Source: Schumannella luteola (GTDB lineage: Bacteria > Actinomycetota > Actinomycetes > Actinomycetales > Microbacteriaceae). Taken from it: a stretch of DNA of 64,000 nt. Both the position numbers and the translations under genes were made by a program. Numbering within the stretch: the first letter of the stretch is position 1; every line of letters starts with the position of its first letter. Of the stretch, positions 39,977-63,848 are shown piece after piece. Location: assembly GCF_013408685.1 (NCBI RefSeq), contig NZ_JACBZY010000001.1:62001-126000 (forward strand), written 5' to 3'. The notes under the pieces were generated by a model that was not told the origin of the DNA, made no database searches, and saw only the letters and a program-made list of their open reading frames with translations.

Positions 39977-40049
39977 GGCTCTGTAGCTCAGTTGGTAGAG
40001 CGTCCGACTGAAAATCGGAAGGTCACCGGATCGACGCCGGTCGGAGCCA
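39977..40049 (+). tRNA. tRNA-Phe (anticodon GAA), attachment site of the island
   Basis: Acceptor GGCTCTG pairs with CGGAGCC, discriminator A. Anticodon stem TCCGA/TCGGA with loop CTGAAAA, anticodon GAA. The gene is complete, but its 3' part from within the anticodon stem (40005-40049) plus one base is duplicated at 45529-45574, marking it as the integration target. Confidence 0.97.
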
Positions 40050-40050
40050 C
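40005..40050 (+). repeat. attL: 46-bp direct repeat at tRNA-Phe
   Basis: Identical over 46 bases to 45529-45574. It covers the tRNA-Phe 3' half from the anticodon stem to the discriminator base plus one base. This is the standard product of integration by a tyrosine recombinase into a tRNA gene. Confidence 0.92.
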
Positions 40051-40177: not shown

Positions 40178-41284
40178 TCAGAGCACGGCGGTGACGCCGG
40201 CTGCCGCAGCTCGGGAATCGAGCGCCATCGCGACCGAGTCGAGATCGTCGTCGAACAGGTCGGCGTAGACGTCGAGCGTCATCGCGGCGCTGGCGTGGCC
40301 GAGCATCCGCTGCACCGCCTTCACGTTCGCGCCGGCGGAGATCGCGAGGCTCGCGGCCGTGTGGCGCAGGTCGTGCAGCGTCAGGCTCGGGAAATCGGCG
40401 TCGGACTCTTTGCAGGCGGTGACCGCATCCGCGAACTGACGACGGCGGAAGTTGTTGCTGCGGAGCACTCCCCCGTCGGGCCCGACGAACACGAGCTCAT
40501 CGCGTCGCCGTCCGACGCAGCGTGCCGCGATCGCCGACGTCAGAAACGCCGGGAACGGCACCGATCGGCTCGCATGCGACTTGGGCGTGCTCCAGACGAG
40601 CTCGCCGCGCGGCGCTGTGACGCCCTCGGCGACCTCCATGCGCCTCCGCAGCATGTCCAGCCGCCCGACCTTCAGCGCGGCCATCTCGCCCCATCTGAGG
40701 CCCGTGTAGGCGAGGAACAGCACGATGTCGCCGTACTCCGGCCCGCAGGCTCGAGCGAGCGCTCCGACCTGCTCATGAGTGAGGTAGCCGCGAGCCTTGG
40801 CCTTCGCACGGGGCAGCCGCACTCCGTCGCAGGGGTTGCGGTTCATCCGGCCGTCGCGGATCGCGTACTTCATGAGCCCGGACATCACGAGGAAGATCTG
40901 GCGCACAGTCGATGCCGCGAGAGTCTGCGACAGCTCGGTGACCCACGACTGCACGTCGGCGTGGCCGACGTCGGCGAGCCGGTAGTTGCCCCACCGCGGC
41001 ACGACGTGGCGGTCGAGCGAGAGCCTGTAGCCGGAGAGCGTCGTCGCTTTCAGCTGCAGCTGCGCCGCGTACCACTGAGGCGCCCACTCAGCGATCGTGA
41101 TGCGCGCCCGCGTCGGGTCGACCCACTCGCCGCGGATCTTGGAGACCTCGACCGTCGCAAGGAAGTCCTCGGCGTCGCGCTTGGTGCGGAACCCGCGCTT
41201 GTCCGTCTGCCGCCGGTCGGGCGTCCGGTAGCGAACCCGGTAGCGACGGCCGGCTGACGTCTCGTACGCGGCGATTGACCCCAT
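40178..41284 (-). CDS. Tyrosine site-specific integrase
   Basis: A 368-residue phage-type integrase. An N-terminal arm-binding domain (YRVRYRTPDRRQTDKRGF, about 1-55) and a SAM-like core-binding domain (about 65-150) precede the catalytic domain. The active residues are present: Arg in AYTGLRWGE, Lys in a strand after it, HxxR in LHDLRHTAAS, His in MLGHASAAMTLDVY and the Tyr nucleophile in the same segment. It is the outermost gene of the island, with its 3' end next to tRNA-Phe. No excisionase gene is adjacent. Confidence 0.95.
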   Translation of the reverse strand: MGSIAAYETSAGRRYRVRYRTPDRRQTDKRGFRTKRDAEDFLATVEVSKIRGEWVDPTRARITIAEWAPQWYAAQLQLKATTLSGYRLSLDRHVVPRWGNYRLADVGHADVQSWVTELSQTLAASTVRQIFLVMSGLMKYAIRDGRMNRNPCDGVRLPRAKAKARGYLTHEQVGALARACGPEYGDIVLFLAYTGLRWGEMAALKVGRLDMLRRRMEVAEGVTAPRGELVWSTPKSHASRSVPFPAFLTSAIAARCVGRRRDELVFVGPDGGVLRSNNFRRRQFADAVTACKESDADFPSLTLHDLRHTAASLAISAGANVKAVQRMLGHASAAMTLDVYADLFDDDLDSVAMALDSRAAAAGVTAVL

Positions 41285-42980: not shown

Positions 42981-44362
42981 CAGCAGCAGGAGGCGGGCTT
43001 TGCGGTCAACGTCAAGCCAGGGCCGGCGGCTCGCTCGCTGACGGCCGACACGACGCAGCAGGAGCTGGCGGCGAGGTCGGTCGAGCAGACGCCGGTTTCA
43101 GGGAGCACGAGCTCGATGCGGCGGGCCTCGTCGTGGCGGCCGGCGAGCTCGTCGGCGATCGAGCGCACCTGCTCGTAGCCGGTGAGCAGCAGGAACGTGG
43201 GTGCGCGGCCGTAGGACTTCATGCCGGCCAGCCAGAAGCCCTTCTCGGGGTGGCTGAGCTCGTCGACGCCGTGCGGCGGCACGGAGCCGCAGGAGTGCTC
43301 GTTCGGGTCGATGAGCGGGGCCAGCTTCTCCGGTGCCTCGACGACGTCATCGAGGCGGAGTCGGATCTCGCGGAGTCCGTCGAGGTCGGGCCGGAATCCG
43401 GTCGCGACGACGATCACGTCGGCGTCGACGGCGATCGGCCGTCCGGCTCGGGTGCCGACCAGCGCCACGGCGTCATCGCGCGGCTCGACGTCGTCGATCA
43501 GGAACTGATCGATCAGGGAGACGGCGCCGTCGTCGACGAGGGATCGGGTGGCGGCGCCGAGTGACGCGCGGCCGGGCAGCTGGTCGTCGTCGGATCCGAA
43601 GACGCGGTGCGGGTTGGCCGAGCGGATCGCCCAGGTGATGGTCGTGCCGGGCTCCTGCTCGGCGAGGCGGCGCAGCGCGATGAGTGTGTTGGCAGCCGAG
43701 TGCCCCGCCCCGACGACAGCGACGCGGCGCCCGGCGAACTGCGCGCGGTCGCGGCCAAGCACGTCGGGAAGTCCGTGGGTGACCCGGTCGGCGACCTCGG
43801 CGCCATGTCGTGCGGCGAGTCCGGATGTGGTCACCGGGTTCGGGGTCGAGAAGGTGCCGGAGGCGTCGATGACGGCCCTCGCGCGGATCTCGTCCTCGTC
43901 ACCGCTGGAGTCGAAGCGGACGAGGAACGGCGTCGAGTCGCGCCCGGCGGTCCGGGTGCGATCCATGCCGTCGCGCGCGACGTTCTCGACGGTGACCCCG
44001 TAGCGGATGCGCGACTCCAGCTGCGGGGTCGCAGCGAGCGGCGCGAGGTAGTGCTTCACGAGCTCGTGCCCGGTCGGCAGCGCGTCGGGGTGCTGCGGCG
44101 TCCAGCCCTGCGCCTCGAGCAGCCGCACCGAGGCGGCGTCGGTGACGTGCCGCCACGGCGAGAACAGCCGGATGTGGCCCCATTCGCTGATCGCAGCTCC
44201 GGCGCGGTCACCTTGCTCGAGAACGAGCGGCTCGATGCCGCGTTCGAGCAGCTGGGCGGCGGCGGCCAACCCGACTGGGCCTGCTCCGATGATGACGACG
44301 GGGAGGCTGGTCTCGCGGTGGTCCGCAATCGCCGCCGCAGATGCGTCGGCGGTGCTGGTCAT
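42980..44362 (-). CDS. FAD-dependent monooxygenase-like flavoprotein with cysteine-pair tail (ArsO-like)
   Basis: A 460-residue protein with two Rossmann motifs: PVVIIGAGPVGLAAAAQLLERG (FAD) and RVAVVGAGHSAANTLIAL (NAD(P)H), and ATGFRPD, in the arrangement of flavin-containing monooxygenases. Flavoproteins of this kind occur in ars operons under the name ArsO, but their reaction is not settled. The last 35 residues are unusual: Cys 426, the pair 435-436 and the terminal pair 459-460, a pattern suited to binding trivalent arsenic, as vicinal pairs do in ArsD. Coupled by ATGA to arsC and by TGATG to arsN. Confidence 0.82.
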   Translation of the reverse strand: MTSTADASAAAIADHRETSLPVVIIGAGPVGLAAAAQLLERGIEPLVLEQGDRAGAAISEWGHIRLFSPWRHVTDAASVRLLEAQGWTPQHPDALPTGHELVKHYLAPLAATPQLESRIRYGVTVENVARDGMDRTRTAGRDSTPFLVRFDSSGDEDEIRARAVIDASGTFSTPNPVTTSGLAARHGAEVADRVTHGLPDVLGRDRAQFAGRRVAVVGAGHSAANTLIALRRLAEQEPGTTITWAIRSANPHRVFGSDDDQLPGRASLGAATRSLVDDGAVSLIDQFLIDDVEPRDDAVALVGTRAGRPIAVDADVIVVATGFRPDLDGLREIRLRLDDVVEAPEKLAPLIDPNEHSCGSVPPHGVDELSHPEKGFWLAGMKSYGRAPTFLLLTGYEQVRSIADELAGRHDEARRIELVLPETGVCSTDLAASSCCVVSAVSERAAGPGLTLTAKPASCC

Positions 44363-44778
44363 GCGGTCGCCTCGTCGGCCGGGACGATCTCGGCGATGAG
44401 CGCCTCGATGCGGCCGCGGATCTCGTCGCGGATGGGGCGGACGTCGTCGAGGGACTTGCCGGCCGGGTCGGTGAGCTCCCAGTCCTCGTAGCGCTTGCCG
44501 GGGAAGATCGGGCAGGTGTCGCCGCAGCCCATCGTGATGACGACGTCGGACTCGCGGACGGCATCCACGGTGAGGATCTTGGGCTCGGCAGTGGCGATGT
44601 CGATGCCGACCTCGGACATCGCGGCCACGGCCATCGGGTTCAGCTTGTCGGCGGGCTCGCTGCCTGCCGACAGCACCTCGACGCGGTTCCCGGCTAGCTC
44701 ACGCAGCCACCCGGCGGCCATCTGCGAACGGCCGGCGTTGTGCACGCACACGAACAGGACGGTGGGCTTCTCGGACAT
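44359..44778 (-). CDS. arsC: Arsenate reductase, low-molecular-weight phosphatase family
   Basis: Start at ATG 44778 with GGAGG six bases upstream gives 139 residues; the longer frame to 44823 has no ribosome site and would cover the operator region. The P-loop CVHNAGRSQ (CX5R) and ITMGCGDTCPIFPGKRYEDW, with two further cysteines, place it in the ArsC group related to low-molecular-weight tyrosine phosphatases, recycled by thioredoxin or mycothiol. It reduces arsenate to arsenite. It is the first gene of the leftward operon, facing arsR. Confidence 0.93.
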   Translation of the reverse strand: MSEKPTVLFVCVHNAGRSQMAAGWLRELAGNRVEVLSAGSEPADKLNPMAVAAMSEVGIDIATAEPKILTVDAVRESDVVITMGCGDTCPIFPGKRYEDWELTDPAGKSLDDVRPIRDEIRGRIEALIAEIVPADEATA

Positions 44779-44820
44779 CGGATCCTCCAGACGATCGGTC
44801 AGCGTCAGTGTGACCTTAAA

Positions 44821-44854
44821 CATCGATACTCGTCAATATAGACATTCATCGATG
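44821..44854. promoter_or_regulatory. Probable ArsR operator in the divergent arsC-arsR promoter
   Basis: CATCGAT (44821-44827) and ATCGATG (44848-44854) form the ends of an imperfect 34-bp palindrome over an AT-rich centre (TCAATATAGACA). It lies 43 bases upstream of arsC and 20 bases upstream of arsR, where a repressor would block both. Confidence 0.6.
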
Positions 44855-44874
44855 AAACGTCGCATGATGGGTCC

Positions 44875-45231
44875 ATGCCGACCGCCGAGCTCATCCCGCT
44901 GACCGACGTCTCGGCCGCCGCCTGCTGCGCGCCTCTCACGAAGGAGGCGATCGATCCCGCCGGCGCCGAGACCGTCGCTCGCACCCTGAAGGCGCTAGCC
45001 GACCCGACCCGCGTGCGGATCGTCTCGATCGTCGCGTCGCACGTCGGCCAGGAGGCATGCGTCTGCGACCTGCAGGAGCCGCTCGGTCTGTCTCAGCCCA
45101 CCGTCTCGCATCACCTCAAGGTGCTGACGGAGGCGGGCTTCCTCACCCGCTCGAAGCGCGGCACCTGGGCCTACTACGCGCTCGTGCCGGGGTCGCTCGA
45201 CAAGATCGCCGATCTGCTGCGCACGGTCTGA
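44875..45231 (+). CDS. arsR: Arsenic-responsive repressor ArsR
   Basis: A 118-residue ArsR/SmtB winged-helix protein: ALADPTRVRIVSIVA, then the recognition helix LGLSQPTVSHHLKVLTEAGF and wing SKRGTWAYYAL. The As(III) site appears to be of the Corynebacterium type, with a cysteine pair near the N-terminus (C17, C18) and one or two more at the start of the HTH (C62, C64 in ACVCDL), rather than the ELCVCD site alone or a C-terminal pair. It should derepress the divergent arsC operon when arsenite binds. Confidence 0.93.
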   Translation: MPTAELIPLTDVSAAACCAPLTKEAIDPAGAETVARTLKALADPTRVRIVSIVASHVGQEACVCDLQEPLGLSQPTVSHHLKVLTEAGFLTRSKRGTWAYYALVPGSLDKIADLLRTV

Positions 45232-46444: not shown

Positions 46445-47227
46445 TCAGCGGCCGGGCAGCGACGCGAGTGCAGCGGATCGGGCGGCGACGAGTTCGTCGT
46501 AGCTGCCCTCGCGCTCGGCCCAGCGGTGCATCTGCACCTTCTGCACCAGGATCTGGTTCGGCGTCGGCTCCTGCGCGAGCAGGGCGAGCGTCTCATCCAG
46601 GTAGTCGTCGAGCGGCAGCGCGGCCGGGTTGAGCTCGAGCGCCTCGGGCACGGTCGCGACTGACGGCGGCACGAGCTCGGTGACGTTCACACCGGTTCCG
46701 GCGAGCTGCGCCCGCAGCGCCTCGCTGTAGGCGTGCACGCCGGCCTTCGTGGCGCCGTAGGTCGCCATGAGCGGGAACGGCAGGAACGCGATGCCCGAGC
46801 TGACGGTGACGATGTCGCCGGCGCCGCGCGCGAGCAGATGCGGGGTGACGGCGTCGATCACGCGGATCGTGCCGAGCAGGTTGACCGCGACGGTCGTCTC
46901 GGCGGCATCCGCGTGGGCGGGGTCGCGCAGATCCTCGATCAGCATGACGCCCGACATCGTGACCACGAGGTCGAGATCCGGATGTGCGGCGAGCACCTCG
47001 TCGCGGGCGCGGGCGATCGAGGCGGGGTCGACGACGTCGACCTCGATGGTCTCGATGCGCGCGAGATCGGCGTCGTCGGGGTGCGCCGCGGCGAGCGCAG
47101 CCACCTTGGTGGTGTCGCGTCCGCCGACGACGACCGTGCTGCCGGCCGCGACGAGTCGACGCGCCAGGCCGAGCCCGATGCCCGAGGTGCCGCCGACGAT
47201 CCACGCGGTGCGCGAGCTGATGTCCAT
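46445..47227 (-). CDS. Short-chain dehydrogenase/reductase
   Basis: A 260-residue classical SDR. The cofactor motif is GGTSGIGLGLARRL with GGRD after the second strand, suggesting NADP(H); the catalytic Ser is in TVSSGIAFL and the YxxxK in MATYGATKAGVHAYSEALR. The overall look is that of DltE-type oxidoreductases, whose substrate is unknown. Transcribed alone, downstream of the amidohydrolase with 131 bases between. Confidence 0.88.
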   Translation of the reverse strand: MDISSRTAWIVGGTSGIGLGLARRLVAAGSTVVVGGRDTTKVAALAAAHPDDADLARIETIEVDVVDPASIARARDEVLAAHPDLDLVVTMSGVMLIEDLRDPAHADAAETTVAVNLLGTIRVIDAVTPHLLARGAGDIVTVSSGIAFLPFPLMATYGATKAGVHAYSEALRAQLAGTGVNVTELVPPSVATVPEALELNPAALPLDDYLDETLALLAQEPTPNQILVQKVQMHRWAEREGSYDELVAARSAALASLPGR

Positions 47228-52967: not shown

Positions 52968-52985
52968 TGTCCGTACACGACGTAC
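52968..52985 (+). promoter_or_regulatory. GntR operator site A (autoregulation)
   Basis: TGTCCGTACACGACGTAC, fitting the core TGTMCGKACAMGACGTAC shared with sites B and C. It lies 54 bases upstream of the regulator's preferred start. Confidence 0.75.
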
Positions 52986-53038: not shown

Positions 53039-53785
53039 GTGGCGCAGACGATCGAACGCGACTCTCCTGTCGCGTACTACGAGCAGCTGTTCGTGATCCT
53101 GCGCGACCAGATCCTCTCCGGCGACATCCCCGCCGACGAGCGGCTGCCCAGCGAGATGGAGCTGTGCCGCGAGTACGGCCTCTCGCGCGCGACCGTGCGC
53201 CAGACCATGTCGAAGCTCGAGAGCGAGGGCTTCGCGCGCCGCGTCGCCCGCCGCGGCGTCTTCGCGTCATCCCCCGAGCAGTCGACCGGCTGGACCGTCG
53301 AAGAGGGATTCCTCGAATCGCAGGTGCGCCAGGGCCAGACCGGCGTGACGACCCAGGTGGTGGATGCGCGGCTCGCCGCCCCGGCCCAGCACGTCGCCGA
53401 GGCTCTCGAGCTGGCTGACGACGCGCAGGTCTTCGCGCTGCAGCGTGTGCGCTCACTCGACGGCAAGGTCGCGATGTTCAGCACGAACTGGTTCCCGAAG
53501 AGCGTGGGCGAGACGGTCTCGGCCGACACCGGCGTGATGGACGGCACCGGATCGCTCAACGAGACCCTGCGCCGTGCCGGCTTCGTCTCGAACGGAGCCA
53601 AGCGCGTCATCCGCGCCATGCGCCCCACCGAAGCCGTCGCCGCGCACCTGCAGATCGACGCCGACCAGCCGGTGCTGCGCGTGCGCTCGCTGTCGTGGGA
53701 TGCGCGGGGCACCCGCTTCGACTACTACGAGACCTGGGTGCTGACCGACATCATCCCGCTCGAGGTCAGCGTCAGCGCGAGCTGA
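53039..53785 (+). CDS. GntR-family regulator, HutC/UTRA type
   Basis: The frame extends to a GTG at 52967, but that codon overlaps the operator; GTG 53039 with GGGGG upstream is better and gives 248 residues. The N-terminal winged helix (PVAYYEQLFVILRDQILSGDI, LPSEMELCREYGLSRATVRQ) is followed by a UTRA ligand domain (about 100-240; FALQRVRSLDGKVAMFSTNW, VLRVRSLSWDARGTRFDYYE). HutC-type regulators are repressors released by a sugar phosphate or similar. It diverges from DUF6328 and precedes the kinase operon, and probably controls itself and both neighbouring operons. Confidence 0.93.
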   Translation: MAQTIERDSPVAYYEQLFVILRDQILSGDIPADERLPSEMELCREYGLSRATVRQTMSKLESEGFARRVARRGVFASSPEQSTGWTVEEGFLESQVRQGQTGVTTQVVDARLAAPAQHVAEALELADDAQVFALQRVRSLDGKVAMFSTNWFPKSVGETVSADTGVMDGTGSLNETLRRAGFVSNGAKRVIRAMRPTEAVAAHLQIDADQPVLRVRSLSWDARGTRFDYYETWVLTDIIPLEVSVSAS

Positions 53786-53802
53786 GGGCGGTCGCGATCA
53801 CC

Positions 53803-53832
53803 GCGACGCCGGTGCCCGAGCACGCGCGTCGC
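53803..53832. terminator. Terminator between gntR and the kinase operon
   Basis: GCGACGC-CG-GTGC, loop CCGA, GCAC-GC-GCGTCGC: a 13-bp stem with one internal mismatch pair region between convergent stops at 53785 and 53841. Confidence 0.7.
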
Positions 53833-53840
53833 GGGGTCGC

Positions 53841-55190
53841 TCAGCCGAGCAGGTCGGCCGCGAAGCCGCCGAGCGCGCGCGCCGGGTCGGGCGTCCAGCC
53901 CAGGGCCTCCGCAGCGAGCAGCGCCGCGCCGACGGCGGTCACCTGCGGCTCGAGCACGGGCGCCGCGCGGTAGCCGTTGACCGCGTTCTTGATGTCGATC
54001 CAGCCGGGTGAGCGCGCCCATCCGCCCGCCAGCCGCACCTCGCCGTCGCCGGCGCCGCCGCGGCGCACCGCCTCGACGGCCTCGCGTCCGGCGATCGCGA
54101 GCGCGCCCAGCACGGCCGAGGCGCGGGCACGCGGATCGGCCGGGGCGTCGAGCGCGTAGGCGGGCTGGCCGCCGCCGTGCGCACCCGGTACGAACCATCC
54201 GGAGTCGAGCACCGGCAGCGGCTGCGCGCTGCCGTCGAGCAGGCCGCGGATGTGCCCCGCGACCTCGGGGTTCTGCGAAGCCCACTGCACGTTGCGTGCG
54301 AGCTCCTCGACGCGCAGCACGGTCGTGCCCGAGCTGCGGATGCCCGGGGCGATCTCGATCGCCGGCTGCCGCGTGTAGTCGGCGGGCGGCGCGGCGGTCT
54401 GGGCGACAACGACCTCGGCCGTGCCCATCGAGTCGAGCAGGGCGCCCGGCACCATGCGGTCGACACCCCAGCCGGCGATGGGATGGTCGTGGCCGCCGAC
54501 GACCGTGATCGCCTCCGCGGAGACCGCGCCGGCCTCGAGCAGACGTGCGGAGACGAGCGGGCCGACGATCTCGCCGGTCGCGGCGACGGGCGGCAGCAGC
54601 TCGACGTCGCCGAGCGTGGAGGTGACGCGGTCGGCATCCCAGCGGCGGTCGCTCGCGTGCCAGGCGCCCGTGCGGGAGGCGAGCGTGTCGCTGAGGAACG
54701 CACGGCCCGACCAGTGCGCGGCCGGCAGGTCGGTGAGCGAGATCCAGCGGTGCGCGCTCGTCGCGCCGAGCTGCTCTCGCGCCCACACCCAGCCGACGAA
54801 GGTGCGCACCGGGTCGCTGTCCGCGTCGAAGGGCTCGGTTCCGCGCAGGCGCGGCTGCAGGTCGCGGAACACCGTCTGCCGACGCGGATCGAACCACGAG
54901 AGCGCCCGGGTGAGCGGGGTGAGCGTCGCATCCACCAACAGGCCGTCTTCGCCGATGCCCGCGGTGCTGACCGCGTGCACCTCGTAGAGGTCGCCGCAGG
55001 CGCTGAGGATCATCTGCTCGATCGCGGCGAGCAGGGCACGGGCGTCGATGAGCGGCCCGTCGGCGTCGCGCGGCGTGGGGCGGATGACACGGGCGACGAC
55101 CGCGCCCTCGGCGTCGATCAGCACGACCTTCGCGTTCGTCGAGCCGATGTCGACGCCGCAGGCGACCGCCGTGCGCGTCGCATTCCCCAC
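53841..55190 (-). CDS. FGGY-family carbohydrate kinase (first of three)
   Basis: A 449-residue FGGY kinase. N-terminal phosphate motif GVDIGSTNAKVVLID, the catalytic-Asp region (TAGIGEDGLLVD ... LSWFDPRRQ), and in the C-terminal lobe DSMGTAEVV and GGWARSPGWIDIKN. The FGGY C-terminal signature itself is poorly kept. It is more like the third kinase (56954-58399) than the xylulokinase-like one between them. It is the last gene of the aldolase operon. Substrate unknown: a ketose, polyol or ketose phosphate. Confidence 0.85.
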   Translation of the reverse strand: MGNATRTAVACGVDIGSTNAKVVLIDAEGAVVARVIRPTPRDADGPLIDARALLAAIEQMILSACGDLYEVHAVSTAGIGEDGLLVDATLTPLTRALSWFDPRRQTVFRDLQPRLRGTEPFDADSDPVRTFVGWVWAREQLGATSAHRWISLTDLPAAHWSGRAFLSDTLASRTGAWHASDRRWDADRVTSTLGDVELLPPVAATGEIVGPLVSARLLEAGAVSAEAITVVGGHDHPIAGWGVDRMVPGALLDSMGTAEVVVAQTAAPPADYTRQPAIEIAPGIRSSGTTVLRVEELARNVQWASQNPEVAGHIRGLLDGSAQPLPVLDSGWFVPGAHGGGQPAYALDAPADPRARASAVLGALAIAGREAVEAVRRGGAGDGEVRLAGGWARSPGWIDIKNAVNGYRAAPVLEPQVTAVGAALLAAEALGWTPDPARALGGFAADLLG

Positions 55191-55264
55191 GAGGCGACGA
55201 TACCGCCGAGCGGAGGCGCGGGGCGGATGCGCGGGGTCGGATCGGGCGGCCGCTCGGCGGAGGT

Positions 55265-55347
55265 GCGCCGCCGGGCCGCGCTCCCCGAAGAGCGGGCCCG
55301 ACGGCGCGGGGATCCCCCGGGCGCGCTCCCCCGAAGGAGCGGCCCGG
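55265..55347 (-). terminator. Two similar hairpins between kinase genes
   Basis: Stem 1 spans about 55265-55309 and stem 2 spans 55317-55347; both have CGCTCCCC(C)GAAG-type centres with GAGCGG on the other arm. Located in the 163-base gap between the second and first kinase genes. They may attenuate transcription into the last kinase or protect the mRNA end. Confidence 0.6.
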
Positions 55348-55353
55348 CGGAGG

Positions 55354-56850
55354 TCAGGCGGCCGGCGATCCCGCCGTCACGCTCGCGGCGCCCGTGGCGG
55401 GCCCGTCGGCGGGGGCTGCCAGCACATCCACGTAGCCGAGCGCGGTCTTCGCCGCCTCGTATTGCGCGCCGACCTGCGGCTCGAACGGCACGGCCGCGAG
55501 CTCGTCGACGGCGACCCGCCAGGCGGGGAAGGCGCCTTCGGCCGCGGCGGCGGCCTGCATCGCGGCGCCCATCGTCACGTACTCATCGGGTGCGGGCACG
55601 GCGACGGGGATGTCGACCAGCTCGCCGAGGATCGCCTGCACCGCCGGGCTCTGCGCCGCCCCGCCGATGAGCAGCAGACGGTTCGTCGGCACGTCGCAGG
55701 CGTGCAGGGCATCCAGCATCGCGACCTGGCTCGCGAGCGTACCCTCGATGACCGAGCGGGCGAAGTTCTCGCGGGTGAAGTTGGCGAGGGATGCGCCGTG
55801 CAGCGAGCCACGCGCGTGCGGCAGGTCGGGGGTGCGCTCGCCCTCGAAGTACGGCAGCAGGGTCAGCCCGCCGGCGCCGGGCGCGGCGGCGAGTGCGAGG
55901 TCGCTGAGCTCGTCGAAGGTGCAGCCGAGCAGGCTCGTCGCGAGCTCGAAGTTGCGTGCCGCGTTGAGGGTGGCGACGAGCGGCAGGTGGTCGCCGGTCG
56001 CATCCGCGTAGCTGCAGACGTAGCCGGCGTAGTCGTGCACCGGGCGGGCGGCGCGGGCGTAGACGACGCCCGAGGTGCCGAGCGAGAGCACGGCCTCGCC
56101 GGGCTGCAGGCCGAGCGCGAGCGACGCGGCGGCGTTGTCGCCGCTGCCGATGCCGACGGGGATGCCCGCCGGGATGCCGGGGATGCCCGCACCGGTCACG
56201 CCGGCGCGGTCGAGCGGGCCGAGCACGCGCGGCAGGATCGCCGTGCGGCCGAGGGCGTGCTCGAAGAGATCCATCGTGTACTCGTCGGTCTCGGGCGACC
56301 AGTAGCCGGTGCCGCTCGCCTCCGAGCGGTCGGTGACGAGCTCGTCGAGGCCGGCGCGCCCCGATCCGGGGCCGAAGCCGCGCAGCCGCCAGGTCAGCCA
56401 GTCGTGCACGATCGCGACCGCGGCGGTGCGCGCGACGGCCTCGGGGTGCAGGTCGCGCATGTAGCGCAGCTTCGGCGCCGTGTCGGAGAGCGTGAGCGGC
56501 AGTCCGGTGCGGCGGATCCACTCGTCGCGCCCCAGCTCGGCGTTGAGCGCCATCATGTGCGGGTGCGAGCCGGTGTCGTTCCACTGAGGCGAATCGGCGA
56601 CGACCTCGCCCGTCTCGTCGAGGAAGATCGGCGTGTGCTGCTGGCCGCTCACCGAGACGGCGATCACGTCATCCAGCCCGCCGGCGCGGCGCACGGCCGT
56701 GAGCAGCGCATCCCACCAGCGGTTCGGGTCGATGATCGTGCCGGAGGGGTGCGAGGCCTTGCCCTCGCGCACGGCGGCGCCGGTGTCGAGGTCGCGCACG
56801 GTGACCTTGCAGTTCTGGGTGGAGGAGTCGATCCCCGCGACGAGCTTCAT
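55354..56850 (-). CDS. FGGY-family kinase, xylulokinase-like (second of three)
   Basis: A 498-residue kinase with the features of D-xylulokinase: GIDSSTQNCKVTVRDL, SVSGQQHTPIFLDE (the QQH substrate loop), WNDT, LSLGTSGVVYAR, LPYFEGERTPDLPHARGSLHG-like FGGY segment and RLLLIGGAAQSPAVQ. It most likely phosphorylates a ketopentose such as D-xylulose, but given its neighbours the actual substrate may be a related sugar. The gap before it (56851-56953) carries three 15-bp tandem repeats. Confidence 0.88.
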   Translation of the reverse strand: MKLVAGIDSSTQNCKVTVRDLDTGAAVREGKASHPSGTIIDPNRWWDALLTAVRRAGGLDDVIAVSVSGQQHTPIFLDETGEVVADSPQWNDTGSHPHMMALNAELGRDEWIRRTGLPLTLSDTAPKLRYMRDLHPEAVARTAAVAIVHDWLTWRLRGFGPGSGRAGLDELVTDRSEASGTGYWSPETDEYTMDLFEHALGRTAILPRVLGPLDRAGVTGAGIPGIPAGIPVGIGSGDNAAASLALGLQPGEAVLSLGTSGVVYARAARPVHDYAGYVCSYADATGDHLPLVATLNAARNFELATSLLGCTFDELSDLALAAAPGAGGLTLLPYFEGERTPDLPHARGSLHGASLANFTRENFARSVIEGTLASQVAMLDALHACDVPTNRLLLIGGAAQSPAVQAILGELVDIPVAVPAPDEYVTMGAAMQAAAAAEGAFPAWRVAVDELAAVPFEPQVGAQYEAAKTALGYVDVLAAPADGPATGAASVTAGSPAA

Positions 56851-56880
56851 CGCTCGGTCTCCGTTCGTGTCGTGCAGTGG

Positions 56881-56925
56881 TGGGTCAGAGCGCAGTGGGG
56901 CAGAGCACCATGGGGCAGAGCGCTC
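56881..56925. repeat. Three 15-bp tandem repeats
   Basis: TGGGTCAGAGCGCAG, TGGGGCAGAGCACCA and TGGGGCAGAGCGCTC lie end to end in the gap between the third and second kinase genes. The TGGGKCAGAGC part is conserved. Confidence 0.75.
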
Positions 56926-56953
56926 CGAGGCGCAGCGTCGGTCGGATGCGCGC

Positions 56954-58399
56954 TCATGCGGGCAGCGCCTTCAGGTGCTCCCAGACGGGCCGCGCGGCGT
57001 CGGCCCAGGCGGTGAGCGCGGCGTGACGCGCGGCATCCGCCGGCACGTCGACGGGGTCGCAGTCGTCCCACGCGCCGGTCTCGCCCGAGGCGAGCAGCTG
57101 CGCGCCGCGCGAGACGACCTCGTGGTGGCTCGAGACGCTGAGCGGAACGCCGAGCAGATCGGCCTTGAGCTGCAGCCAGAGCGGGTTGCGGCTGGCGGGG
57201 CCGATCACCTTCACCCGGTCGGGCTGGATGCGGAACAGCTCGAGCACGTCGGCGAACTGCCACGCCATGCCGAGGAAGGCGCCGAAGACGAGCTCGGCGC
57301 GGGTGGTGTCGGTGGAGAGCCCGGCGATCGCGCCACGGGCCCGCGGGTTCTTCGCGGGGCTGGGGCTGCCGCGGAACTGCGGCAGCACGAGCGGTACGCG
57401 GTCGAGGTCGATGCGGCCGGCGACCCACTCGGCGTGCAGCTCGTCGCAGAGCGCGGCGAGGGATGTCGCATCCATTCCGAGCATCGACTGCAGCGTCGCG
57501 AAGGCCGAGCCGCCGGTCGGGATCGAGGCGAAGAGCGTGAAGTCGTCGCCCGTCACGCCGATGCCGTTCGCGAGCTTCGAGCGCTCGGCGTGCTCGTCGA
57601 CGGTCGGCTCGTCGCGCAGGAACAGCAGCCCCTCGGTCGTGCCGGTCGAGTTGAGCAGCTCGCCGTGCGCGAGCTCGGCGCCGACCGCGCCGACCATGTG
57701 GTCGTGCCCGGCGACGTGCACCATGACGCCCGGTCCGAGGCCGAAGCCGCGGGCGCACGCGGGGCGCATCGGCACGCCGTCGCCCGCGCGCCGCAGCTCC
57801 GGCAGCACCTCGACGTGCACGCCGAGCAATCCCGCGACATCCTGCGACCAGGAGGCGGTCGCCAGGTCGAGCGCGAGGGTGCGGCTGGCGAGCGAGTACT
57901 CCGACCAGCGCACGCCCGTGAGCCGGGCGGCGATGTACTCGGCGATGTTGAGCCACTGGGCTCCGCGCGCGGCGGGGCCGGCGGCGCGCAGCGCCCAGGC
58001 GATCTTCGACAGCCCGTAGTTGCCGCTCACCGGCAGGCCGGTCGTGCGGTAGGCGCGGGTGCGGTCCATCGCATCCAGCCCCGCCAGCAGCGGCAGGCCG
58101 CGCTGGTCGTGCCAGAGGATCATCGGCGAGGCGAGGGAGATGTCGGGCAGAACGAGTCCGCCCGACTCCCCCACGCCGGTGATCGCCACGCGCTCGACCG
58201 CGGCACGCTGGTCGGCGTCGAGACCGTGGATGAAGTCGCCGATCATCGTCGCCATCGCGTCGAGGTCGTAGACCTCGCCGTCGGCGTCGCGCACGGTCGG
58301 GGTGGGCTGCGAGGTCGAGACCGTCGCCACCCCCTCGGGATCGAAGAGCCCGAGCTTCACACTGGTGGTGCCGACGTCGACCGCGATCGTGGTGAGCAC
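56954..58399 (-). CDS. FGGY-family carbohydrate kinase (third of three)
   Basis: Start GTG 58399 with AGGA upstream, 481 residues. Motifs: IAVDVGTTSVKLGLFD, VAITGVGESGGLVL, MILWHDQRG (catalytic region), GHDHMVGAVG, NSTGTTEG and KVIGPASRNPLWLQLKADLL-type FGGY region. It resembles the FGGY kinases that act on sugar acids or tetruloses more than XylB. It is second in the operon, 44 bases after the aldolase gene. Confidence 0.87.
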   Translation of the reverse strand: MLTTIAVDVGTTSVKLGLFDPEGVATVSTSQPTPTVRDADGEVYDLDAMATMIGDFIHGLDADQRAAVERVAITGVGESGGLVLPDISLASPMILWHDQRGLPLLAGLDAMDRTRAYRTTGLPVSGNYGLSKIAWALRAAGPAARGAQWLNIAEYIAARLTGVRWSEYSLASRTLALDLATASWSQDVAGLLGVHVEVLPELRRAGDGVPMRPACARGFGLGPGVMVHVAGHDHMVGAVGAELAHGELLNSTGTTEGLLFLRDEPTVDEHAERSKLANGIGVTGDDFTLFASIPTGGSAFATLQSMLGMDATSLAALCDELHAEWVAGRIDLDRVPLVLPQFRGSPSPAKNPRARGAIAGLSTDTTRAELVFGAFLGMAWQFADVLELFRIQPDRVKVIGPASRNPLWLQLKADLLGVPLSVSSHHEVVSRGAQLLASGETGAWDDCDPVDVPADAARHAALTAWADAARPVWEHLKALPA

Positions 58400-58443
58400 G
58401 GCGATCCTGTCCTTCTGGTTCTGCGGCTGGTGGGTTCTGCGGC

Positions 58444-59283
58444 TTACGCCACGGAGGGGTTGAACTGGCGGATGCGGCGCTCGACGACCTCCGAGATCGC
58501 GACGACCGCGCCCTTCGAGACCCGGATCAGCGAGTTCTCGTTGTTGTTGGCGTTGTAGGCCTCGCCGAAGCTGCGGATCATCGCGTTGCGCAGGTCGCTG
58601 GCGATGTTGACCTTGACGACGCCGAACTCGTGCAGGCGGCCGAACTCCTCCGCCGGCAGGCCCGATCCGCCGTGGATGCACAGCGGCACGGGGCTCGCGT
58701 GGCGCACCTCGTCGAGCAGGTCGAAGTCGATGTGCGCGTTGGGGGCGTAGCCGTGCACGTTGCCGACGGAGACGGCGAGGATGTCGTTGCCCACGGCATC
58801 CACGAAGGCCTTCGCCTCGCCCGGCTGGGTCATACTGGCGCGCTCGGGGGCGACGTCGTCCTCCTTGCCGCCGATGCTGCCGAGCTCGGCCTCGAGCGCG
58901 ATGCCGGGGCCGCAGAGCGAGCGGGCGATCTTCGAGGTGGCGACGTTGTCGTCGAAGGAGGCCTCGGAGTCGTCGATCATGATCGACGTGAAGTCGGCGG
59001 CGAGCGCCTTCTCGACGGCGTCGATCGACTTGCCGTGGTCGAGGTGCAGCGCGACGGGCACCTTCGTGTCCTTCAGGCGGCGGGCGACCATGTCGTAGAT
59101 GTACTCGTAGCCCGAGAGCGCGACGTTGGTGGGGGCGACCTGGATGAAGGTCGGCACGCCGACCTTCTCGATGGCGTCGACGATGCCCATGGTCGTCTCG
59201 ATGTTGGTGGTGTTGAACGCTCCCGCGACGAGACCGCGCGAGACGCACTCGTTCACGACCTCGATTCCGCTGACCAGAGGCAT
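58444..59283 (-). CDS. Class II ketose-bisphosphate aldolase (GatY/KbaY-like)
   Basis: A 279-residue class II aldolase. Zinc ligands and active-site residues are visible: VALHLDHG (His-Asp), EAELGSIGG, VSVGNVHG, LCIHGGSGLP and KVNIASDLR. The length and ELGSIGGKEDD loop fit the tagatose-/fructose-bisphosphate aldolase subgroup rather than the longer FbaA. It would split a ketose 1,n-bisphosphate into dihydroxyacetone phosphate and an aldehyde. First gene of an operon with three kinases; operator B is 58 bases upstream. Confidence 0.9.
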   Translation of the reverse strand: MPLVSGIEVVNECVSRGLVAGAFNTTNIETTMGIVDAIEKVGVPTFIQVAPTNVALSGYEYIYDMVARRLKDTKVPVALHLDHGKSIDAVEKALAADFTSIMIDDSEASFDDNVATSKIARSLCGPGIALEAELGSIGGKEDDVAPERASMTQPGEAKAFVDAVGNDILAVSVGNVHGYAPNAHIDFDLLDEVRHASPVPLCIHGGSGLPAEEFGRLHEFGVVKVNIASDLRNAMIRSFGEAYNANNNENSLIRVSKGAVVAISEVVERRIRQFNPSVA

Positions 59284-59340
59284 GGGGGTCCTTTCGCTGT
59301 GGGATCGCCGCTCGCGGCGCTTCGGGCTAACTGTACCGTC

Positions 59341-59358
59341 TGTACGTACAAGACGTAC
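59341..59358 (+). promoter_or_regulatory. GntR operator site B (aldolase-kinase operon)
   Basis: TGTACGTACAAGACGTAC, a match to the shared core, 58 bases upstream of the aldolase start codon. A further half-site CTGTAC lies at 59331-59336. Confidence 0.8.
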
Positions 59359-59450
59359 GACAAGAGATCTGGGGATCGCCCGCCGGCGACGGGTGGTGAG
59401 CGCGCGTGATGAGCCGCGCGCCGCCGCCGACGGGCGAGAGGGTGCGCCGC

Positions 59451-60017
59451 TTACTCGAAGTTGCGGTGGCGGGCGACCAGATCCTCGAACTTCGCGCCGG
59501 TGCGCTGAACGAGCTGGAAGTAGAGCACGTCCCAGAAGATCCAGAGCGACTGCTCGAACAGGCTGCCCATGGGCTGGATCGTCGGCACGAGACCGCTCGG
59601 GTCGTCGGCGCCGTAGGTGTGCGCGGGGATCGTGAGCACGATGTCGGCGAGCTTCGCGGTCGGGCCGTCGGGCACCGCGGTCGCGACCAGCAGCGTCGCG
59701 CCCGTCTTCTTCACCTGCTCGGCGATGTAGTGCAGGTGCGGGATGTTCGACGGGCCCGTCGGCATGATGAACAGGTCGTCGGCCGTCACTGCCGGCGTCG
59801 TGTCATCCCAGCCCCAGTGCACGGTCTTGCCGAAGTGGGTCAGGCGCATCGCGAAGGCCTTCGAGCCGAGGCCCTCGCGGCCGATGCCGAGCACGAAGAT
59901 GCGCTGGTGCTTCTCGAGCGCGTCGAGCGCGGCCTCGATCTGGTCGAGCGGCACGCGGCGGAACACCTCGCCGAGCTCGGCGACGACGGCGGCGCTGGTC
60001 TCACGGAAGTCGGACAT
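59451..60017 (-). CDS. SIS-domain sugar-phosphate isomerase-like protein
   Basis: A 188-residue SIS domain protein of the 6-phospho-3-hexuloisomerase (PHI) size and shape: RIFVLGIGREGLGSKAFAMRL, GWDDTTPAVTADDLFIM, TLLVATAVPDGPTAKLAD, and a C-terminal helix from QPMGSLFEQSLWIFWDVLYF. PHI-like enzymes interconvert hexulose phosphates. It is the last gene of the importer operon, after the permease. It implies that the imported compound is isomerised as a phosphate. Confidence 0.86.
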   Translation of the reverse strand: MSDFRETSAAVVAELGEVFRRVPLDQIEAALDALEKHQRIFVLGIGREGLGSKAFAMRLTHFGKTVHWGWDDTTPAVTADDLFIMPTGPSNIPHLHYIAEQVKKTGATLLVATAVPDGPTAKLADIVLTIPAHTYGADDPSGLVPTIQPMGSLFEQSLWIFWDVLYFQLVQRTGAKFEDLVARHRNFE

Positions 60018-60135
60018 GCTGTCCTCCCTTTCAGTTCTGGCGGTTCAGTTCGTTCTGGTCTTGAGGAGCGCCCACGGCCTGAGCTCGGCGTGGGCACGGT
60101 GGGCCGGCGGCGCGCGGCAGCGCCGACCCACCGGG

Positions 60136-61164
60136 TCAGGTTCGGCTCGGGCGGGCGCCGAAACGGCCGACGAAGAGCGCGAGCAGGATGACTCCGCCGT
60201 AGACCGCGTTGATCCAGAAGGTCGGCACGCCCGCGAGGGTGAGCACGTTCGTCAGGGTCCCGAGCAGCAGCACACCCAGCAGCGCGCCGACGATGCGGCC
60301 CTGACCACCGGTCAGCTGCACTCCGCCGATCACGGCAGCGGCGAGCGCGCTGAAGATCAGGTTCTGACCCATTCCGCTCGTGACCGAGGCGAGGCGCCCG
60401 GCGAGCATCAGGCCGGCGAAGGAAGCCAAGGTGCTGGCGACGATGAAGGTGGTGATGAGCACCGCATCCACCCGGATGCCCGCGGCACGGGCAGCGTCGG
60501 CGTTGCCGCCGATGGCGTACAGCGCGCGACCCCAGGCGGTGTAGCGCAGCACGAGCGCGGCGATCACGAACAGGATTCCGGTGACCCAGATCGCGGCCGG
60601 GACGCCGAACCAGCGGGCCGAGCCGATGTAGCGGAAGGCGTCGGGCAGCCCTGCGAGTGTCTTGCCCTGGCTGACGCCGAGCGTGATGCCGCGCAGCAGG
60701 ATCAGCATCGCGAGACTGACGATGAAGGGATCGAGTTTCACCTTCACCACGAGCAGGCCGTTGAAGAGGCCGATGAGCGCGCCGATCACGAGCGTGAGCA
60801 GGATCGCCACGAAAGGGTTGATCATCGTGCCGAGTCCGCCCATCGCGGCCGGGATCAGCAGCCAGGCGGCGACCATCGGCGCCAGGCCGACGGTCGACTC
60901 GAGCGAGATGTCGAGCTTGCCGGTCAGCAGGATGAAGGTCAGGCCGATCACGACGATGCCGAGCTCGGCCGACTGACGCAGGATCAGCGTGAGGTTCGGC
61001 GCCGTGAGGAACGCCGGGCTCACGATCGCGCCGATGACGGCGACGATGATCAGGCCGGGCAGGACGCTGAGCTCGCGCACGTTGCGCACGACGGATCCGA
61101 GGAACGGACTGCGCCCTGACGGGACGGTGATGACGGTGGTGCGTGCGCTGTTCACGGGGTTCAC
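60136..61164 (-). CDS. Sugar ABC importer permease (RbsC-like)
   Basis: A 342-residue BPD-transporter family 2 permease from GTG 61164, overlapping the ATPase stop (GTGA). About ten helices and the coupling-loop region NADAARAAGIRVDAVLI, where the EAA-like contact of RbsC sits. It forms the channel for the sugar delivered by the lipoprotein at 62699-63760. Confidence 0.92.
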   Translation of the reverse strand: MNPVNSARTTVITVPSGRSPFLGSVVRNVRELSVLPGLIIVAVIGAIVSPAFLTAPNLTLILRQSAELGIVVIGLTFILLTGKLDISLESTVGLAPMVAAWLLIPAAMGGLGTMINPFVAILLTLVIGALIGLFNGLLVVKVKLDPFIVSLAMLILLRGITLGVSQGKTLAGLPDAFRYIGSARWFGVPAAIWVTGILFVIAALVLRYTAWGRALYAIGGNADAARAAGIRVDAVLITTFIVASTLASFAGLMLAGRLASVTSGMGQNLIFSALAAAVIGGVQLTGGQGRIVGALLGVLLLGTLTNVLTLAGVPTFWINAVYGGVILLALFVGRFGARPSRT

Positions 61165-62669
61165 TCCAGGCCTTCGATGGCTCGAACGATGTCTTCTTCG
61201 GTGGGTTCGGCGAGCTCGGCCGCGATGCGGCCCTCGCGCATGATGAGGACGCGCGAGCTGACGAGCAGCTCCTCGACGTCGTCGGAGATGAGCACGACGG
61301 CGACACCGTCGGCGAGGGCGCGCAGGATGAGCGCGTAGATCGCGTCCTTCGCGGCGATGTCGACGCCGGCGGTCGGTGAGATCAGCACGAGCACGCGCGG
61401 ATCGCGGGCGAGCGCGCGGGCGAGCACGACCTTCTGCTGGTTGCCGCCGCTGAGACCGGAGACCGCGAGGGCGGGGTTCGGCGGAACGAGCGCGACGTCC
61501 TGGATGAGGGTGCGCGACATCTCGTTCTGCTTGCGCGGCGAGAAGAAGCCCGCCGGCGCGAGCCGGTCCATGACGCCCATGGTCATGTTCTCGGCGACGC
61601 TGAGCTGGGGCACGTAGCCGTCCTTATGACGGTCGGCGGGCACGAAGCCGACGCCCGCCTTCTGACTGGCCTTGACCTTGCCGGTGGGGATGACCTCGCC
61701 GTCGGCGAGCACCGATCCCGAGCCGAGTCGGCGCAGACCGGCGATGGCCTCGCCGACCGAGTACTTGCCCGATCCGCCGACGCCGCCGATGGCGACGAGC
61801 TCGCCCGGCGCGACGCGGAACGACACGTCCGTGAACGCGCCGCCCTTCTCGGTGGCCGAGCGCAGCTCGAGCGCCGGCGCCGTGTCGGTCGCCGTCGCGG
61901 CAGCGCTCTCGACCCGGTGGCGTCGCTGCTCCTGGCCCGCGAGCAGGGCCTCCACCAGGTCGTCGGACTTCACGTCGTCGCCGGTGCGCGACCAGAGCAG
62001 CTTGCCGTCGCGCAGCACGCTGGCGGAGTCGCAGATCGCCGTGACCTCGCGCAGGAAGTGCGAGACGAAGACGAAAGTGACGCCGTCCTGCTGCAGCTCC
62101 TGCACCTTGTCGAAGAGCCGGCGGATTGCCGAGCCCTCGAGCTGCACCGTGGGCTCGTCGAGCAGCACGATGCGGGTGCCGGCGTCGAGCGCCTTCGCGA
62201 TCGTGAGCATCTGGCGTTCCTCGATCGGGGCATCCGACAGCAGCGAGCGCGGGTCGAGGTCGATGCGCCACTCGGCGAGGATGCGCTCCGCCTCGTTCTG
62301 CATCGTGCGCCACGACACCGACGGCCCGTTGCCGGGCAGGCGCCCGGCGAACAGGTTCTCGGCGATCGTGAGGTTCGTGAACACCGAGGGGCGCTGGTAG
62401 ACGCAGGCGACGCGCTGCTGCCAGGCCTTGGCGTCGGCGGCGGGCGGCGCATCCTCGCCGAAGAAGCGCACGGCTCCCGTGTCGGGCGTCTCGAGCCCGG
62501 TGATCATGCGCAGCAGCGTGGACTTTCCGGCGCCGTTGCGCCCGATCAGCCCGTGCACCTGGCCCGGGAGGATCGAGACGGAGACGTCCTGCAGCGCCTT
62601 CGTCGCACCGTAGGTCTTGCTGACGCGATCGATCTGGATCGCGGGCACGGTGGTGGATGGGGTCGTCAT
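61161..62669 (-). CDS. Sugar ABC importer ATPase with two nucleotide-binding domains (RbsA-like)
   Basis: A 502-residue duplicated ATPase. First half: Walker A GRNGAGKST and IVLLDEPT are intact, but the signature is APIEERQ instead of an LSGGQ form. Second half: signature LSGGNQQKVVLA is intact, while its Walker A (GGVGGSGKYS) and Walker B (VLVLISPTAGVD, lacking the catalytic Glu) are degenerate. So only the composite site made of the first Walker motifs and the second signature should hydrolyse ATP. Asymmetry occurs in this family, but this degree is marked. Confidence 0.92.
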   Translation of the reverse strand: MTTPSTTVPAIQIDRVSKTYGATKALQDVSVSILPGQVHGLIGRNGAGKSTLLRMITGLETPDTGAVRFFGEDAPPAADAKAWQQRVACVYQRPSVFTNLTIAENLFAGRLPGNGPSVSWRTMQNEAERILAEWRIDLDPRSLLSDAPIEERQMLTIAKALDAGTRIVLLDEPTVQLEGSAIRRLFDKVQELQQDGVTFVFVSHFLREVTAICDSASVLRDGKLLWSRTGDDVKSDDLVEALLAGQEQRRHRVESAAATATDTAPALELRSATEKGGAFTDVSFRVAPGELVAIGGVGGSGKYSVGEAIAGLRRLGSGSVLADGEVIPTGKVKASQKAGVGFVPADRHKDGYVPQLSVAENMTMGVMDRLAPAGFFSPRKQNEMSRTLIQDVALVPPNPALAVSGLSGGNQQKVVLARALARDPRVLVLISPTAGVDIAAKDAIYALILRALADGVAVVLISDDVEELLVSSRVLIMREGRIAAELAEPTEEDIVRAIEGLE

Positions 62670-62698
62670 GACGTCTCCGTCTCGCTTCCGGTCGGAGG

Positions 62699-63760
62699 TT
62701 ACTTCGAGGCGCCGAAGGCCTCGAGGGCGAACTTCTTGTTGCCCCAGAGCTCCGGGTCCTCGACGTTGTCCTTAGTCACGACGGGCGTCGGGAGCAGGTC
62801 GACGAGGTTGCCCTTGCGCTTCTCGATGACGCTGCCGTGGTCGGTCTTGCCTTCCTTGAACTTCTCGCCCTTGATCGCGCGAACGAGGTAGTCGGCGCCG
62901 TAGTCGATGTAGTCGGTCATCGGCTGCGCGACGGCGGCGTCGAGGTAGCCGTCGCGGATGGCCGTCATCGCCATCGGGCTCGCATCGACGGAGACCTGCA
63001 CGATGTGGCCCTCCTCGCCGACCGGCACGAGCTTGCCGAGCGACTTGAGCGTGTCGAGGATCGTCGGGAAGAAGGTCGCGTCGCTCTGGTTGTAGATGCC
63101 CGCGATGTTGTCGTACTGGTTGAGCGCCGTCTCGATGCCGGTCGCGGCCTTGGCCGGGTCCCACTCGGTGGCGACGTTGACGAGCTTCACGTCGGGGTAC
63201 TTCTTCTTCATGCAATCGTTGAAGCCGTTGGTGCGGTCACGGCCGTTGGAGGTGACGGGGTCGCCGTCGAGGGTGATCACGGCCGATCCGGCCTTGACGC
63301 GCTTGCCCATCTCCTCGCAGGCGAGCTCGCCCATGTGCACGTTGTCGGCGCGCACGATCATCGCGATGTTGCCCGAGGCGGGCGCCTCGTCGATCGCGAC
63401 GATCGGCACGTTCTGGTCGTTCGCGTACTCGATCGCGGGAACGATCGCGTCGGCGTCGCCGACGGAGATCACGAGGCCCTTGGCGCCCTTGTTGATGAGC
63501 GTCTGGATGTCGGTGATCTGCTGCGCGGGGTCGCGGTCGGCGTTGGTCGCCGGGATCGTCGCGTAGCCGAGCTTCTTGAAGCGCTCCATCGAGCCGACGT
63601 TCTCGGCGTTCTGGAACGGGTCGGTGTGCGGCTGGGAGTAGCTCAGCTGGGTGTCGGCCGGCTTGGCGTCGCCGCCGGCGGCGGCTCCCGTCGAGCAGCC
63701 GGCCAGCAGGAGAGCGCCGACGCCCAGGACTGCCGCCCCCGTGATTGCCGTGATTCGCAT
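62699..63760 (-). CDS. Sugar-binding lipoprotein (periplasmic-binding protein type 1)
   Basis: Start ATG 63760 with GAGAGGAAG upstream, 353 residues. Lipoprotein signal with lipobox LLLAGC near residue 21. The RbsB-like fold is evident: QITDIQTLINKGAKGLVISV, VPIVAIDEAPASG, ITLDGDPVTSNGRDRTNGF and DASPMAMTAIRDGYLDAAVAQ. It captures the substrate for the importer. First gene of the four-gene operon; operator C is 71 bases upstream. Confidence 0.93.
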   Translation of the reverse strand: MRITAITGAAVLGVGALLLAGCSTGAAAGGDAKPADTQLSYSQPHTDPFQNAENVGSMERFKKLGYATIPATNADRDPAQQITDIQTLINKGAKGLVISVGDADAIVPAIEYANDQNVPIVAIDEAPASGNIAMIVRADNVHMGELACEEMGKRVKAGSAVITLDGDPVTSNGRDRTNGFNDCMKKKYPDVKLVNVATEWDPAKAATGIETALNQYDNIAGIYNQSDATFFPTILDTLKSLGKLVPVGEEGHIVQVSVDASPMAMTAIRDGYLDAAVAQPMTDYIDYGADYLVRAIKGEKFKEGKTDHGSVIEKRKGNLVDLLPTPVVTKDNVEDPELWGNKKFALEAFGASK

Positions 63761-63830: not shown

Positions 63831-63848
63831 GTACGTCTTGTCCGTACA
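63831..63848 (-). promoter_or_regulatory. GntR operator site C (importer operon)
   Basis: On the minus strand TGTACGGACAAGACGTAC. With flanks, 63828-63850 is a near-perfect 23-bp palindrome beginning TCTGTACG and ending CGTACAGA. It is the most symmetrical of the three sites. Confidence 0.82.

Follow-up and report, generated by a model that had tools for sequence, protein, structure and literature searches.

A predicted three-kinase sugar or polyol regulon of Schumannella luteola with a proposed ketose-1-phosphate route

We analysed a 64,000-nucleotide stretch of the Schumannella luteola genome (the window; G000:C1:62001-126000 in a genome of 3.75 Mb) and within it a gene set at 53039-63760, which encodes a GntR-type regulator, three FGGY kinases (K1, K2 and K3), a class II aldolase (ALD), a SIS-domain isomerase (SIS) and an ATP-binding cassette (ABC) importer of the ribose type. 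Each of the nine genes is an open frame at the coordinates given below, and the frames and their Pfam assignments agree with the initial annotation, which had listed the same gene content with three distinct kinases. Counting a major facilitator superfamily (MFS) transporter gene, the predicted regulon comprises ten genes and extends past the end of the window.

53039..53785, + strand: HutC-type GntR/UTRA regulator gene, gntR (Pfam UTRA/GntR; locus relatives)
53841..55190, - strand: K1, FGGY kinase of a separate tree clade with a GHDH motif, proposed ketose 1-kinase (Pfam FGGY_N, tree, AlphaFold model)
55354..56850, - strand: K2, FGGY kinase, kin of actinobacterial xylulokinases with altered motifs (Pfam FGGY_N and FGGY_C, NCBIfam, tree)
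56954..58399, - strand: K3, FGGY kinase, proposed triose (glyceraldehyde) kinase (Pfam FGGY_N and FGGY_C, tree, co-occurrence with ALD)
58444..59283, - strand: ALD, class II aldolase of the fructose-bisphosphate aldolase (FBA)/tagatose family, proposed ketose-1-phosphate aldolase (Pfam F_bP_aldolase, alignment)
59451..60017, - strand: SIS, HxlB-like isomerase with a replaced phosphate loop (Pfam SIS, alignment, fold match)
60136..61164, - strand: CUT2-type ABC permease (Pfam BPD_transp_2)
61161..62669, - strand: CUT2-type ABC double ATPase (Pfam ABC_tran)
62699..63760, - strand: ribose-type substrate-binding protein (SBP), lipoprotein signal judged by eye (Pfam Peripla_BP_4)
G000:C1:126015-127322, just beyond the window end: RbtT/DalT/CsbX-type MFS transporter gene (495 bits against a cut-off of 375)

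None of the five enzymes (K1, K2, K3, ALD and SIS) scored over an NCBIfam cut-off, and K1 is 96% identical to the K1 of Schumannella soli (L033). Ribose binders are among the nearest solved chains of SBP, and this likeness was tried as a guide to its substrate and set aside, since several of the presumed ligand residues, compared by eye, differ; as in the initial annotation, no substrate is assigned.

An operator-like repeat with the consensus GTACGKMCAAGMCGTAC was spotted by eye in spacers of the host, at the following sites.

52969..52985, + strand: operator-like site before gntR (2 mismatches to GTACGKMCAAGMCGTAC)
59342..59358, + strand: operator-like site before ALD-K3-K2-K1 (perfect match)
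63831..63847, - strand: operator-like site before the SBP-ATPase-permease-SIS operon (perfect match)
G000:C1:127360-127376, outside the window: operator-like site before the RbtT/DalT-type MFS gene (perfect match)

With up to three mismatches the window holds four matches to the site, of which two overlap at a single promoter, and 100 shuffles of the window gave a mean of 0.47 matches, with four or more in none. At up to two mismatches the whole genome gave five matches, namely the three perfect ones before ALD, SBP and the MFS gene, the one before gntR with 2 mismatches and a distant one also with 2. The reversed control pattern gave four matches genome-wide, so that the site count by itself is not above the control and the evidence for an operator lies in the perfect matches and their positions. 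Among the 36 related loci described below, the site was found in 30 at up to two mismatches and in 33 at up to three, compared with 0 and 10, respectively, for the reversed pattern; no match at up to three mismatches was found in L047, L053 and L067, and the three matches in L066 all fall within genes. Since the pattern comes from host sequence and many of the 36 loci are related, these counts are support, not proof. The repeated site before these units leads us to predict co-regulation of gntR, ALD-K3-K2-K1, SBP-ATPase-permease-SIS and the MFS gene, with the GntR protein as the putative binder, and this prediction takes in all three kinases, as the initial annotation had supposed.

A profile scan of genome contigs with a K1 alignment returned 79 loci, from which 43 weaker ones (L069-L111, up to 33% identity) were dropped before counting and 36 (L033-L068, 40-96% identity) were used, with presence scored by tblastn at identity thresholds that we set. 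Besides K1 itself (36 loci), these carry GntR (33, at 40-98% identity), K3 (26), ALD (25), K2 (24), SBP (17), SIS (16), an MDR dehydrogenase (16), a class I aldolase (c12; 12), an MFS transporter (11) and a DhaK-type kinase (10). ALD and K3 occur together in 25 of the 36, joined by K2 in 23; in the other two, from Arthrobacter (L056, L058), K2 lies just past the locus edge (L126, L125). The one K3 locus of 26 scored without ALD, L038, starts inside K3 at the locus edge. The recurrence of ALD-K3-K2 among K1 loci marks the gene set as more than chance, and is in line with the initial annotation, which had proposed a search for co-occurrence in other genomes and pictured a regulon for a sugar or polyol with unusually many kinases; the set is indeed conserved there as a unit.

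The system is rare, K1 being found at E<=1e-30 in 8 of 299 genomes of the family with the host counted, and class-wide scans with K3, ALD and SIS under strict limits returned the host alone among 246 genomes each. Among 245 genomes of the Arthrobacter family, ALD was found only in the Arthrobacter genome taken as centre, and a plasmid DNA search with ALD, K3 and SIS gave just two weak aldolase matches. The K1 locus of Pseudomonas fluorescens (L057:9160-21314) also encodes pyruvate kinase, enolase, triose-phosphate isomerase and, truncated at the locus edge, phosphoglycerate mutase, and looks as if it carried its own lower glycolysis. In two Frigoribacterium loci (L049 and L063:13385-15479) a class II fructose bisphosphatase and another class II aldolase are added, with families checked in L049.

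We propose, at about an even chance of being right, that the genes form a catabolic regulon working by a ketose-1-phosphate route under the GntR regulator, which would act as a repressor. The ABC importer would take up a sugar, probably a rare one, and SIS would convert it to a 2-ketose, which K1 would phosphorylate at O1, with K2 perhaps doing likewise for another ketose. ALD would then split the ketose 1-phosphate into dihydroxyacetone phosphate (DHAP) and an aldehyde without a phosphate, the likeliest being glyceraldehyde from a hexulose, and K3 (DhaK in sister loci) would phosphorylate the released aldehyde to a triose phosphate.

The PDB matches of ALD were FBA/tagatose aldolases and YdjI, and we aligned it with E. 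coli FbaA, KbaY, GatY and YdjI, a relative from E. coli KE47, a Collinsella homologue and 10 orthologues. ALD retains H107, D109, H110, E174, H226, H264, G265 and S267 (E. coli FbaA, mature numbering), which comprise the metal ligands, the catalytic Asp D109 and the tested DHAP-phosphate residues G265 and S267. At the positions of S61 and R331, which we take to be C6-phosphate contacts of FbaA, ALD has A50 and I253, and the 10 aligned orthologues agree; the corresponding pair is A/A in the KE47 relative, G/L in YdjI, which RefSeq annotates as an octuluronate-1-phosphate aldolase, and T/R in KbaY and GatY, and the Collinsella homologue has K at the R331 (Arg) position. The position of K325, presumably a third C6-phosphate contact, falls in an FbaA stretch missing from KbaY and GatY too and is uninformative for ALD. 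Against the NCBIfam class II aldolase model PRK07998, ALD scored 331.2 bits, under the cut-off of 364, and the KE47 relative 556.9. The absence of S61 and R331 equivalents, as in YdjI, argues for a ketose 1-phosphate as the substrate.

The second kinase points the same way. K3 is present in 26 and a DhaK-type kinase in 10 of the 36 loci, with both in none and neither in none, an exclusion with a chance of 4e-9 under independence, although the loci are not independent. The DhaK-type loci (Rhodococcus, Nocardia, Asaia, Pseudomonas and others) share with the host a K1 orthologue or relative and a similar GntR, but their aldolase is a class I DhnA-like one, most of them include an MDR dehydrogenase, and they carry DhaK and no SIS; weaker K1 relatives occur in Agrobacterium and Paracoccus. 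DhaK accompanies c12 in 10 of its 12 loci, and the other two, from Arthrobacter, have ALD-K3 and then K2, thus combining the class I aldolase and K1 pair of the DhaK-type loci with an ALD-K3-K2 set that replaces DhaK; the operator-like site (up to three mismatches) was found in 10 of the 12 scanned, Arthrobacter included. The mutual replacement of K3 and DhaK favours the ketose-1-phosphate route, as the DhaK-type kinase indicates phosphorylation after, not before, aldol cleavage, and its triose type is the sole reason why a hexulose is favoured over a pentulose. The four lower glycolytic enzymes that the Pseudomonas locus adds also favour this route.

A cluster in E. coli KE47 (L128:10737-16336), between nikR and yhhJ, contains relatives of K3 (37.8% identical) and ALD (48.6% identical), an HPr-like gene, a GntR regulator and genes of a galactitol-type phosphotransferase system (PTS), the last standing where the host has K1, K2, the ABC importer and SIS. 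Of 5426 E. coli genomes, 1617 have a match to the stretch, which covers 80% or more of it in 1615. Its HPr-like gene adjoins the FGGY kinase gene, which is reminiscent of the solved LsrK-HPr complex. The company of a galactitol-type PTS is a further argument for the ketose-1-phosphate route, but the same cluster can be read as two phosphorylations, by PTS and FGGY kinase, in support of a bisphosphate route, in which one kinase would act at the far end of the sugar and another at O1 and ALD would split the bisphosphate into two phosphorylated products. Such a route, which we consider rather improbable, would suit the membership of ALD in a bisphosphate aldolase family and the invariant Arg that adjoins its lost Arg, and has a precedent in the Haloarcula mannitol/sorbitol pathway; this resembles our proposal in leading from polyol to ketose to ketose 1-phosphate, but its second kinase, a fructose-1-phosphate kinase following the ketohexokinase, works ahead of the aldolase (PMC11519228). 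The lack of S61 and R331 equivalents in ALD and the DhaK that takes the place of K3 in 10 of the 36 loci speak against it. The suggestion of the initial annotation that several substrates converge on one bisphosphate thus survives in part, since entry of several substrates into one core is plausible where a dehydrogenase elsewhere replaces SIS and the ABC importer, but the bisphosphate itself is disfavoured.

FGGY_N was found by Pfam in all three kinases and FGGY_C in K2 and K3 only, although the AlphaFold model of K1 (mean predicted local distance difference test score, pLDDT, of 87.7) matches complete two-domain FGGY kinases. The best NCBIfam model for all three is XylB (TIGR01312, cut-off 380.25), with 76, 318.3 and 149 bits for K1, K2 and K3, respectively. 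A tree was built from 32 FGGY proteins, the characterised ones all from E. coli. In it, K1 and its relatives form their own clade (100/100), the KE47 kinase is the sister of K3 and three orthologues (100/99), and K2 groups with actinobacterial xylulokinase-like proteins, beside a second such host gene (L028, 54.6% identical). RhaB and FucK phosphorylate at O1, and among seven aligned E. coli K-12 kinases (AraB left out) they have SHDT and GHDT, respectively, around the conserved Asp, whereas XylB, GlpK, LyxK, LsrK and YgcE lack the His; both K1 and K3 have GHDH, a resemblance that supports the ketose-1-phosphate route. The kinases could also work in parallel on ketoses from several polyols or sugars, with K2 supplying xylulose 5-phosphate to the pentose phosphate pathway and ALD serving one branch only, an arrangement consistent with the RbtT/DalT-type transporter of the regulon, the nesting of K2 among xylulokinase-like proteins and a nearby xylose isomerase gene in 9 of the 36 loci (family checked for one). 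We think this improbable, as the host already holds the other xylulokinase-like gene, QQHT and SDT in K2 and 24 orthologues stand against QQHG and SFT in all nine xylose-operon paralogues, and Arthrobacter keeps ALD-K3-K2 together apart from K1.

The SIS fold is that of HxlB, with matches to YckF and MJ1247, as judged from a weak model (mean pLDDT 65.5) that was used for the fold only. The GRS and SxSGxT residues hold phosphate in SIS proteins. In the window protein and its 16 orthologues GRS is replaced by GRE and SxSGxT by (S/T)GP(S/A)NI (17 of 17), and the QxMGSLFEQ motif is retained; the usual residues are present in 10 of 12 compared SIS proteins (3 of 3 HxlB beside hxlA, 7 of 9 others), the two exceptions (L133, L155) having GRE and a partly altered loop. 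In the Phyllobacterium plasmid locus L133:5499-14903, the GRE-type SIS gene is accompanied by sugar ABC-like genes, by an MDR dehydrogenase and by an FGGY kinase that scores 394 bits against the pentulose-kinase cut-off of 408.7 and so lies near that family. That SIS is an ordinary 6-phospho-3-hexuloisomerase, or another phosphosugar isomerase acting on a kinase product, is possible but doubtful: HxlB is its best family and the fold and retained motif fit, but it scores 147.2 bits against the HxlB cut-off of 160 (TIGR03127), its phosphate loop is altered throughout, and the genome has no hexulose phosphate synthase over the cut-off (best 20 bits against 200), for which reason a formaldehyde/ribulose monophosphate role was also rejected.

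The replaced phosphate-loop residues and the position of SIS opposite a dehydrogenase suggest that its substrate may be an unphosphorylated sugar. SIS/ABC and the MDR dehydrogenase alternate, with both in 0 of 36 loci (a chance of 7e-7 under independence, again for loci that are not independent), and there are thus two alternating feeder modules, a polyol dehydrogenase or, in the host, the ABC importer with SIS; as alternatives they add to the case for the ketose-1-phosphate route. Genome-wide, the dehydrogenase (E<=1e-50) was found in 6 of 23 genomes, five ALD-type without SIS and one Arthrobacter, and in 0 of 17 with SIS, host included. For 14 of the 20 loci without SIS the genomes were searched, of which 7 hold only 33-37% identical SIS proteins and 7 gave no SIS relative at E<=1e-20. 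The statement of the initial annotation that the window has no dehydrogenase does not hold, as an SDR-type dehydrogenase gene lies at 46445-47227, outside 53039-63760 and without an operator-like site.

Several points weigh against the proposed route. We infer every reaction, the sense of control and the carbon number from the observed gene content and order, operator-like sites, residue losses and co-occurrence, and the C6-phosphate roles of S61 and R331 are presumed. The invariant Arg of the ALD orthologues, one position past the lost R331 (SLIRV; NLARV in E. coli KE47), might bind the phosphate of a shorter chain and so keeps the bisphosphate route alive. K1 and K3 do not group with FucK or RhaB in the tree, the structural matches of K1 are led by xylulokinases and gluconokinase with FucK first at rank 40, and K2 has no firm role. 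A Dak1 gene is found somewhere in 19 of 19 genomes searched, host included, so that K3 need not be the sole triose kinase, and descent confounds the co-occurrence, the DhaK-type loci lying mostly in other lineages than the K3-type ones. A joint reading, in which SIS moved from phosphosugars to an unphosphorylated aldose with the ribose-type importer replacing the polyol dehydrogenase, and K3 is an FGGY triose kinase in the place of DhaK, would make this a new ketose-1-phosphate enzyme set; we offer it tentatively, as unlikely to be right.

Among known systems, E. coli YdjH/YdjI is alike in that its class II FBA-type aldolase lacks counterparts of S61 and R331 and has an annotation for a ketose 1-phosphate, but no K3, SIS or ABC importer adjoins it, and its kinase YdjH is presumably of another family than K1-K3. 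Triokinase belongs to the DhaK family, and the DhaK-type sister loci likewise carry a dihydroxyacetone-kinase-family gene. In liver fructolysis (ketohexokinase, aldolase B, triokinase) triokinase phosphorylates glyceraldehyde and dihydroxyacetone (PMC10096667), and the order of ketose 1-kinase, ketose-1-phosphate aldolase and triose kinase is the one proposed here; the host regulon differs in using FGGY kinases and a class II aldolase. An erythritol/threitol-type tetrose pathway was considered and dropped, as no direct evidence was found for it and a formose-tetrose paper (PMC12780249), when searched for aldolases, FGGY kinases and gene clusters, yielded no passage. In a full-text search of open-licence papers, the gene set was not recognised in the titles and abstract openings among the matches listed.

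Elsewhere in the window, a phage-type integrase gene (40178-41284) adjoins a tRNA-Phe gene (39977-40050), a possible integration site, a 2294-aa frame (5225-12109) joins GH92 domains, CBM6 modules and a PAP2 domain, and an arsenate-reductase-like gene (44359-45231; best 95 bits, cut-off 215) is divergent from an ArsR-type regulator.

Taken together, the analysis assigns roles that can be tested to three FGGY kinases and one aldolase that family models do not name confidently, and roughly 30% of the complete E. coli genomes that were searched contain relatives of two of these host enzymes, K3 and ALD. If the reading is true, a SIS isomerase can act on a free sugar, and the regulon may lead to an overlooked natural source of sugar or polyol.

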